From: Druceiella hillmani
Lineage: Eukaryota; Arthropoda; Insecta; Lepidoptera; Hepialidae
Length of the DNA: 64,000 nucleotides
NCBI GenBank assembly: GCA_039881145.1
Contig: JAYKKI010000037.1
Location: 14,953,501 to 15,017,500 of the forward strand
Direction of reading: 5' to 3'
The translations under genes were made by a program, and so were the position numbers. The notes below the pieces were generated by a model. It ran no database searches and was not told where the DNA came from. It saw only the letters and a list, made by a program, of their open reading frames with translations. Every line of letters starts with the position of its first letter. Within the stretch, counting starts at the first letter, position 1. This document shows positions 28,473 through 48,176 of this stretch, in pieces.

Positions 28473-28697
28473 TCAAACACCTTCAGGTTGGCTACTAGCA
28501 AATATATTGTTGATATTCAATCCATCGTAAGTTCGTGTTATTTTGACAGTTCATAATATATACACTAGAGAAAATATTCTCTAAAATGTCGTCAGGAATT
28601 AATTATTTAATCGATTTTTTTCTTTCTAATATCTTTGCTAATAGCCCACCTGAAGATGTTGTAATACAATGAAATCTAGGTCGTGGTTTCATTTAAT
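28473..28697 (+). mobile_element. Hammerhead-bearing foldback element, copy A (partial)
   Basis: The right side carries an almost intact hammerhead ribozyme (28646-28686) preceded by ATCTTTGCTAATAGCC. The left side at 28473-28507 is the reverse complement of the same region (CACCTTCAGGTTGGCTACTAGCAAATAT), so remnants of two facing arms are present. After the ribozyme, about 55 bp of arm seen in copies B and C is deleted, and the sequence jumps to the terminal TTTCATTTAAT. The central 115 bp does not match the other copies. No target-site duplication could be identified. This looks like an older, rearranged member of the same family. Confidence 0.6.
28646..28686 (+). ncRNA. Hammerhead ribozyme motif, copy A (best preserved core)
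   Basis: Order of elements: stem I 5' strand CCAC (28646-28649); core CTGAAGA (C3-A9, 28650-28656); one extra T; stem II G-T-T-G-T / A-C-A-A-T closed by an AAT loop (28658-28670); GAAA (G12-A15.1, 28671-28674); a minimal stem III/loop TCTAGG; then TC (U16.1, C17; 28681-28682) and stem I 3' strand GTGG (28683-28686). Cleavage would fall after C28682. Every invariant core residue is present. Minimal stem III and an extra nucleotide after A9 are features I associate with hammerheads of Penelope-like elements. The stem II closing pair is a G-T wobble. Confidence 0.72.
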
Positions 28698-34187: not shown

Positions 34188-34382
34188 GTACAGCATGTAA
34201 CAGTAAATAATCAAAACATAAGAACTACAAATTATAAACATAATACATAATACAATATTATAGTTTGAAATTGTAGTTTGTACAATTTTTGAACCATACA
34301 TCTAAAAACTTACTCTCACTCGCCATCAACAATTATAATTTTTCATTCTTACTTTTCCACTTATTGAAAATGAAACGTAATA

Positions 34383-34624
34383 TTGAATATATTTGGCGTT
34401 AATTTTATAGAAATTCATTATTCACAATTAAATAAAACTACGTGATGTAGTATTATTTCTACTTTCTTTAAGTTCTTTACAACGACCAAAGTTTCGTTTA
34501 GCAAAGAAAATCTTTGCTAATATAGTCCACCTGAAGATATTGTAATACAACAAAACCTAGGTCGTGGTAAAGAACTTAAAGAAAGTAGAAATAATACTAC
34601 ATCACGTAGTTTCATTTAATTGTG
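34383..34624 (+). mobile_element. Hammerhead-bearing foldback element, copy B
   Basis: The element starts TTGAATATATTTGGCGTTAA, a tail of about 40 bp outside the foldback. Its left arm at 34423-34480 (CACAATTAAATAAAACTACG ... TTCTTTAC) pairs with its right arm at 34567-34624 over 58 bp with few mismatches. Between the arms lie a truncated antisense hammerhead half (about 34481-34496), a small hairpin TTAGCAAAGA/TCTTTGCTAA, and a complete-length sense hammerhead at 34527-34567. Layout and sequence match copy C at 47877-48164. No protein is encoded, so mobility would depend on another element, plausibly a Penelope-like retroelement, or on RNA-level processing. Confidence 0.72.
34527..34567 (+). 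ncRNA. Hammerhead ribozyme motif, copy B (core mutated)
   Basis: Stem I CCAC (34527-34530) pairs with GTGG (34564-34567). The core CTGAAGA is at 34531-34537, followed by an extra T and a stem II ATTGT/ACAAC with AAT loop whose closing pair is broken (A39-C51). The expected GAAA reads AAAA at 34552-34555, so invariant G12 is replaced by A. Then come CCTAGG and TC at 34562-34563. G12 is required for catalysis in known hammerheads, so this copy should be inactive or very weak. Confidence 0.68.
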
Positions 34625-34634
34625 AAACGTAATA

Positions 34635-47642: not shown

Positions 47643-47972
47643 TGTTAATTTGTTCTTCAATTACGTGATTACGTTCAATACACAGATTTAACAACAGTTT
47701 ATACTCTTATATGTAGGGAATTTTTTATCTAGATATTTTAGATTTAAAAACACTGACGTGGTGAATATTACGATATTGGTACTGCTAACCCTATCTATTA
47801 GCGTTTTTAAAAGAGTTTATTTTTATAGAGTTCGGAGAAAAAATAATTAAAAAAAATTCCCAACAACTTTCTTTATCGAATATATTTAGCGTTAATTTTG
47901 TAGAAATTCATTATTCACAATTAAATGAAACTACATGATGTAGTATTATTTTAACTTTCTTTAATTTCTTTA

Positions 47973-48013
47973 CCACGACCTAGGTTTTGTTGTATTACAA
48001 CATCTTCAGGTGG
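47973..48013 (-). ncRNA. Hammerhead ribozyme motif, copy C left arm
   Basis: On the minus strand: stem I CCAC (48013-48010), core CTGAAGA (48009-48003), an extra T, a perfect 5-bp stem II GTTGT/ACAAC with AAT loop, AAAA in place of GAAA, then CCTAGG, TC (47978-47977) and GTGG (47976-47973). The geometry is complete except for G12 changed to A. Confidence 0.7.
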
Positions 48014-48066
48014 GATATTAACAAAGATCTTCAGGTGGTATATTAGAGAAAATCATTGCTAATATC

Positions 48067-48107
48067 CTACCTGAAGATGTTGTAATACAACAAAACCTAG
48101 GTCGTGG
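48067..48107 (+). ncRNA. Hammerhead ribozyme motif, copy C right arm
   Basis: Stem I CTAC (48067-48070) pairs with GTGG (48104-48107) through one T-G wobble. The core CTGAAGA is at 48071-48077, followed by an extra T and a perfect stem II GTTGT/ACAAC (48079-48091). AAAA replaces GAAA at 48092-48095, followed by CCTAGG and TC at 48102-48103. As on the other arm, loss of G12 predicts loss of activity. Confidence 0.7.
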
Positions 48108-48176
48108 TAAAGAAATTAAAGAATGTAGAAATAATACTACATCACCTTGTTTCATTTAGTTGTGAACTTTTTTTAT

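Follow-up and report, generated by a model that had tools for sequence, protein, structure and literature searches.

Hammerhead ribozymes reportedly occur in the pseudo-long terminal repeats of Penelope-like elements, as put forward by Cervera and de la Pena in 2014. The excerpted text of PMC7761336 calls the role of the Penelope hammerheads unknown and describes most minimal hammerheads in animal genomes as dispersed in non-coding DNA. In vitro, the Penelope-like protein PAc cleaves its target on both strands, with a preference for ATT, and extends both of them, and it uses two internal start sites for reverse transcription, the stretch between which corresponds to the optional 30–40-bp tail of genomic copies; additional steps of the insertion are stated to await experimental validation (PMC11167929). 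Here, we analyse a window of 64 kb from Druceiella hillmani (C37:14953501–15017500 of a 2.586-Gb assembly in 181 contigs), which contains a foldback insertion, copy C, and two related insertions, copies A and B. The G+C content of 27–32% per 4-kb step and the presence in 64 kb of just two frames that run for 150 codons or more from stop to stop mark the window as eukaryotic.

Copy C (47877–48164, forward strand) is a 288-bp foldback with a hammerhead-like motif once per strand, recognized from its inverted arms and from matches to the repeated unit on both strands. It is a composite of two units of ∼155 nt joined 5′ to 5′, so that one motif lies on each strand as a result, and not the single element with two ribozymes that the first-pass annotation had proposed. 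That annotation placed the foldback, its two opposed motifs and its ends correctly: the insertion is flanked by AACTTTCTTTAT at 47865–47876 and AACTTTTTTTAT at 48165–48176, a target-site duplication that is identical at 11 of 12 positions. The palindrome is real and far beyond chance (RNA fold z = −23), but its arms are longer than the nearly 100 bp originally given, at 119 nt each (47914–48032 and 48048–48166, 91% complementary, separated by a 15 nt spacer). The left unit lies on the reverse strand at 47877–48028 and comprises unit positions 1–155 including a 3′ tail (blastn of the unit aligns 48028–47874 at 94%), while the right unit on the forward strand at 48052–48164 comprises positions 1 to about 113 without a tail (blastn aligns 48052–48166 to positions 1–115 at 92%). 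The tail itself, absent from the right unit, occupies 47877–47914 on the reverse strand and is delimited by two family-wide 3′ ends about 38–40 nt apart. The motif CTGAAGATGTTGTAATACAACAAAACCTAGGTC is found at 48071–48103 on the forward strand and at 48009–47977 on the reverse strand, and on each strand it reads CTGAAGA T GTTGT AAT ACAAC AAAA CCTAGG TC GTGG. The whole hammerhead-like motifs extend over 48067–48107 in the right unit (forward strand) and 47973–48013 in the left unit (reverse strand). We assume the standard hammerhead numbering with a cut after H17, by which the nucleotide at position G12 is A in both units (48092 and 47988) and the predicted cuts fall at 48103|48104 and 47977|47976.

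The unit is very abundant. Exact matches to the motif in its GAAA form number 24,002 and 24,023 on the two strands of the 2.59-Gb assembly (48,025 in total), and exact matches to the 3′ half of the unit number 31,884 and 31,849 (63,733), with none for the reversed-pattern control in either case. Read in the sense of the motif, the unit starts with ATCTTTGCTAATA(G/T)CCCAC and carries the motif at positions 20–52. Its 3′ ends cluster at 112–125 (TTTAATTGTG) and at 152–155. Beyond position 155 unrelated DNA follows at 126 tail ends, except in two pairs, one of which is a duplicated locus. The loci L139 and L143 have identical flanks and the same 15-bp duplication, which points to a segmental duplication of the locus. 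Common alternatives at positions 14 (G/T) and 64 (C/A) define at least two subfamilies. Unit fragments also repeat at spacings of 51 and 92 bp elsewhere (G000 C11:10909555–10909727 and C2:14725653–14725857), and the element thus seems to seed short tandem arrays of such fragments.

The head-to-head arrangement of copy C is the usual form of the family. This was counted in 30 loci and 60 regions that were selected by the pattern of the 3′ half, and not by the motif, and that all lie within the first 3 Mb of one contig. Of the 103 distinct anchored units in this sample, 82 face a partner on the opposite strand, 5′ end to 5′ end; both units of one insertion can count towards this figure, and the partner search extended to 160 nt. 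The 3′ ends of the two partners alternate: in 55 of 68 pairs one unit ends near 155, with the tail, and the other near 100–135, whereas a single pair has two long ends, a single pair two short ends, and 11 have an end outside both classes. Permutation gave a mean of 28.9 such pairs, and 55 was reached in none of 10,000 rounds. The limits of the two classes were chosen after viewing the distribution, and three units (in L225, L235 and L272) each take part in two pairs. Truncation at the 5′ end affects either or both units, and the 5′ ends range from a short overlap to a separation of about 140 nt.

The insertions are bounded by target duplications. A high duplication score is obtained for 34 of 39 copies, including B and C (L139 and L143 sharing one duplication), compared with 4 of 400 mismatched flank pairs. 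By a stricter score the counts are 38 of 66 pairs and 0 of 300, and 18 of these 38 duplications are exactly 12 bp and nine are 13 bp long. In 30 copies with clean duplications the site is TTAA-like on the left and ATTAA-like on the right, with A in 23 of the 30 at one position, in a genome that is itself AT-rich. Near-perfect inverted arms and a duplication length with a mode of 12 bp look transposase-like, as would be expected of a foldback or Mutator-like (MULE) non-autonomous DNA transposon with long terminal inverted repeats and an accidental likeness to a hammerhead. However, the tail makes the two ends unequal, so that there is no terminal inverted repeat, and the truncation of 5′ ends at many points, the filler that often lies between the units and the partnerless units are all marks of incomplete reverse transcription; we therefore consider a DNA transposon very improbable. 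Still less credible is an origin from a viroid-like RNA, copied into DNA, in which hammerheads of the two polarities are opposed to each other. The rod-like fold, the length of about 290 nt and the motifs that face each other are reminiscent of such RNAs, but the palindrome is built from two units that can each be inserted, units often lack a partner or are truncated to different extents, and the motif is present in tens of thousands of copies with target duplications.

The symmetric target, the near-constant stagger and the head-to-head cDNAs (complementary DNAs) together suggest that both target strands are cut and both 3′ ends are extended on unit RNA, and priming on both strands is what we infer from the head-to-head pairs and the symmetric site. 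We consider it likely that the element is a hammerhead-bearing, non-autonomous unit mobilized by a Penelope-type machinery and that the foldbacks are dual-primed insertions. In this model the unit is a non-coding retroelement of ∼155 nt, very abundant and with a minimal type I hammerhead motif near its 5′ end, the RNA of which would be used by a Penelope-type protein. At an AT-rich target of rough symmetry the protein would make cuts in both strands, staggered by 12 bp, and each freed 3′ end would prime reverse transcription of one unit RNA. One cDNA would begin at the 3′ site near 155, giving the tail, and the other at the internal site near 112–125, giving no tail, after which the two would join at their 5′ ends to leave a head-to-head inverted pair between 12-bp duplications. 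A more tentative proposal, to which we give slightly less than even weight, is that this double priming is coordinated and is the normal route of insertion for this class of element. A dimeric Penelope-type complex would break the target symmetrically with a stagger of 12 bp and copy two RNAs simultaneously, one from each start site, so that the insertion would receive its second strand from another first-strand synthesis. In twin priming of long interspersed nuclear elements, part of the copy becomes inverted because the other nick serves for a second round of priming; the cDNAs of the present unit differ in that each of them starts from a 3′ site of the unit and both can span its whole length.

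The mobilizing protein is presumably Penelope-like. As in Penelope-like elements, the unit bears a minimal type I hammerhead motif, and it resembles the PAc system in its optional 3′ tail of about 30–40 nt bounded by two 3′ ends, its AT-rich target and the cutting and priming of both strands (PMC11167929). It differs in having no open reading frame and a length of only ∼155 nt, and the main text of PMC11167929 does not give a tailed and untailed head-to-head pair as the usual form of insertion. Some observations weigh against the proposed link: the start sites used by PAc do not differ between the strands (PMC11167929), unlike the two alternating ends of the present element; no partner was found for 21 of the 103 units; and the search for an autonomous Penelope element that shares the end of the unit came back empty, the GIY-YIG screen having scored 150 of 1,572 candidates with two matches. 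An open reading frame with reverse transcriptase and GIY-YIG endonuclease domains is likewise absent from the unit, with its 155 nt and 126 tail ends that run into unrelated DNA. The genome does contain a GIY-YIG relic (L293, Pfam E = 2.5e-8), which we take to be of Penelope type. A second GIY-YIG match is an exon of the host genome (L292 1489–1698, reverse strand, Pfam E = 1.2e-8), presumably SLX1-like.

The other described class with which the unit has to be compared is that of the metazoan retrozymes without long terminal repeats, where a hammerhead-made, unit-length circular RNA would be reverse transcribed and inserted, the foldback being a secondary rearrangement. The unit is like them in being small, non-coding and AT-rich, with a type I hammerhead and many copies (the axolotl has 126,247 hammerhead motifs), as described in the excerpt of PMC7229834, and its size, low G+C content, type I motif and duplications of more than 4 bp agree with the published description as far as excerpted (PMC7229834; PMC7761336). 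In these excerpts, retrozymes are direct tandems, whereas head-to-head inversion is the rule here, and the insertions of our unit end away from the cut site. Four same-strand adjacencies were found among 156 units in 81 loci, and on inspection only L225 is a true direct tandem, the other three being single units interrupted by an internal deletion; hammerhead-bearing direct tandems are therefore not the rule in this sample. The units mostly begin at position 1 and end near 117 or 155, away from the predicted cut, and two alternating 3′ ends would not be expected from a circle. A retrozyme origin is in our view improbable, and the Penelope-mobilized unit remains the preferred reading. A short non-autonomous element of Penelope or retrozyme type had been proposed at the outset, and this agrees with the huge family, the target duplications, the optional 3′ tail and the insertion on both strands.

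A loose motif pattern gives three matches in the window against 0.07 expected from shuffled sequences. With a relaxed descriptor (CTGANGA, 0–1 insertion, stems I and II each of at least 4 bp), 8,492 simulated windows gave 73 matches with GAAA (0.009 per window) and 531 with NAAA (0.06 per window), and at these chance rates one such motif by itself would not be overwhelming evidence. G12 is named as the general base of the hammerhead (PMC6155905, in excerpt), and copies B and C carry AAAA and thus lack it. The sequences of copy A (ACAATGAAAT) and of the left part of copy B (ACGAAAC) pointed to ACAACGAAAC as the ancestral form, from which CpG decay would have removed G12. This deduction from the copies in the window is borne out at genome scale: the GAAA motif has its 48,025 exact matches, and both cores are intact in 22 of 37 full-length copies. 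These copies are the best matches to copy C (which itself is among 40 places scored in the genome) and not a random sample; the core of CUGANGA, GAAA, A15.1–U16.1 and H17 is present on at least one strand in 34 of them, that is on both strands in 22, on one in 12 and on none in three. In the 60 regions selected with the 3′-half pattern, the core is present in 27 (both strands in three, one strand in 24) and absent from 33. Copy C itself does not have it, as G12 is A in both arms. Three closing stems of 4 + 5 + 3 pairs can form, and 97.9% of the cells are paired in the four motifs of the window, although another fold of the monomer is favoured. Helix III consists of an A–U and a C–G pair with a CUAG loop, and its sequence ACCUAGGU is self-complementary, so that two molecules could pair as a dimer in a helix III of 8 bp and −11.4 kcal/mol in the nearest-neighbour model. 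The axolotl Amex1 and Amex2 hammerheads also have a very short helix III with a tetraloop, which is palindromic in Amex1, and the base of helix II is disturbed by a U–U mismatch in Amex2 and by an unpaired extra U in our unit; in the same excerpt they differ from the unit, which has no tandem array, and dimer action is reported for amphibian hammerheads (PMC7229834). Dimer action is thought possible for Penelope hammerheads as well (PMC7761336, in excerpt).

We are fairly confident that the motif is a hammerhead, as a statement on identity that leaves activity aside, while several results weigh against this assignment. In every motif copy of the window A9 is separated from stem II by one additional U, and an extra base is present there in nearly all of 265 units, with three gaps at that position. 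At the Rfam thresholds a scan of the window returned nothing, and up to E = 10 copies A and C gave no hammerhead match, so that the Rfam check proposed for the position of copy C came out negative. For an intact genome copy the Rfam list up to E = 10 has a single entry, Hammerhead_HH9 at 14.6 bits (E = 0.23), which is far under the gathering threshold of 52; one lower match of the same clan is omitted from that list. As a control, 12 phage loci that contain a hammerhead-like pattern were scored; one of them passed the gathering threshold for a hammerhead, and L050 matched below it. Our own covariance model (R1), built from 27 phage hammerheads, matched nothing in the window under default filtering; once the filters were switched off, it scored at best 5.7 bits (E = 0.11), at the left motif of copy C, and 4.1 bits in the vicinity of copy A. 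It matched six of six phage loci given, some of which are its training members, and was rejected as a hammerhead test, its collecting pattern having fixed one stem II and U7 and thereby introduced a bias. The covariation in stems I and II that had been suggested as a check did not clearly appear either: there are no two-sided changes among the four motifs of the window, and no clear covariation in the 265 units, where four of eight double changes are paired against about four expected (summed over pairs). Finally, the nearest-neighbour model gives the hammerhead fold about 6e-7 of the ensemble of the intact monomer, with −4.8 kcal/mol against −14.6 kcal/mol for the minimum-energy fold. Matches to micro-RNA models in the window were discarded, as they lie below gathering and would fit any long hairpin.

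Some of these results would suit a reverse-transcribed unit in which the motif is no ribozyme and what is conserved is a long hairpin with ACCU:AGGU and UGUUGU:ACAACG pairing, for instance an RNA-binding structure. In its favour are the stability of the minimum-energy fold, the lack of clear covariation, the extra U in the core and the fact that cDNA starts, counted per insertion, do not clearly peak at the cut. On the other hand, the family sequence has every core position (CUGANGA, GAAA, A15.1–U16.1 and UC) together with the three closing stems, G12 was deduced from decay in the window before the other copies were read, and a hammerhead is the sole Rfam match listed for the intact copy. Penelope elements as a rule bear such motifs, according to the excerpt of PMC6155905. 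We regard the hairpin as unlikely, though the strongest competitor of the Penelope-mobilized hammerhead unit. In intact units the motif may be a working hammerhead, and its cleavage may play a part in the cycle of the element. For copy C the first-pass annotation is upheld in part, in that a motif of complete length lies on both strands, but G12 is A in both and a U is inserted after A9. The self-cleavage of either transcript that it envisaged is not to be expected here, given the loss of both G12 residues, a full transcript that is predicted to fold as a long hairpin (−154.9 kcal/mol) and the calculated preference of even the intact unit for another fold. Copy C is a decayed copy and is expected to be inactive.

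If the RNA were cut at 52|53 and then reverse transcribed, units would start at position 53. Among 49 units that start between 8 and 70, six start there (binomial 1.2e-4), corresponding to four insertions, one of which (L213, identical to L180) had prompted the test. Without L213 the count is 5 of 46 units (8e-4), or three among 35 insertions (p = 0.03), and a start at 38 is seen in five insertions. Genome-wide patterns give 544 matches for a start at 53 (both subfamilies) and 203 for a start at 54 (one subfamily), which are unmatched counts; 17 of the first 100 matches listed for position 53 are small deletions instead. The excess at 53 was for these reasons dropped as support, and the counts are no good evidence on cleavage either way. 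In the small sample the units that start at 53 are of the A type. Stops of the cDNA at about 38, just before GAAA, are commoner than at most points (L224, L225, L248, L273, L277 and copy B).

Copy B (34383–34622, forward strand) is an insertion of the same kind as copy C, identified by blastn of the unit, with a 5′-truncated left unit (38–155) and a right unit (1–115) between exact 12-bp duplications of TGAAACGTAATA (34371–34382 and 34623–34634). Its left part was initially read as an arm with a deletion, which unit mapping replaced by a truncated unit starting at 38. The hammerhead-like motif of copy B, with AAAA replacing GAAA, was matched at 34527–34567 on the forward strand; this third motif, at 34531, is near-identical to those of copy C. 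Copy A (28631–28687, forward strand, from unit mapping) is partial, with unit positions 1–57 and a GAAA motif at 28650, followed by TTTCATTTAAT as though positions 58 to about 100 had been deleted. Its partner lies at 28476–28505 on the reverse strand and comprises positions 1–30 (blastn of the unit, E = 5e-5; nhmmer, E = 0.0025). Elsewhere in the window, one of the two long frames contains a transposase relic at 2367–2822 on the reverse strand (Pfam PF21789, E = 1.7e-13), presumably of a P-element-like (TNP) transposase. Scans of viral and prokaryote contigs with the family patterns gave six short-pattern matches, unrelated to the element on inspection, and were otherwise empty. A CTGATGAGTC..GACGAAAC pattern is common in the viral contigs (at least 120 stretches, for example L094, L108 and L114), and some of these loci carry two three-stem motifs. 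A hammerhead-like motif also lies within a cluster of 11 transfer RNA genes on a phage contig (L068 585–608).

Among the best literature matches, paired head-to-head hammerhead units appear in none of the titles and opening parts of abstracts, and Cervera 2014 and Lunse 2017 may describe them. The parts of the element are of known kinds, and it is their combination and abundance that are new. For one genome, a mobile unit of 155 nt can now be named as the place where dispersed minimal hammerheads reside, and its many copies provide ample natural material for counts of start sites, stagger and truncation points. If double target-primed reverse transcription is indeed the coordinated, normal route of insertion, the head-to-head pairs, probably many thousand in number, would be a record of it.
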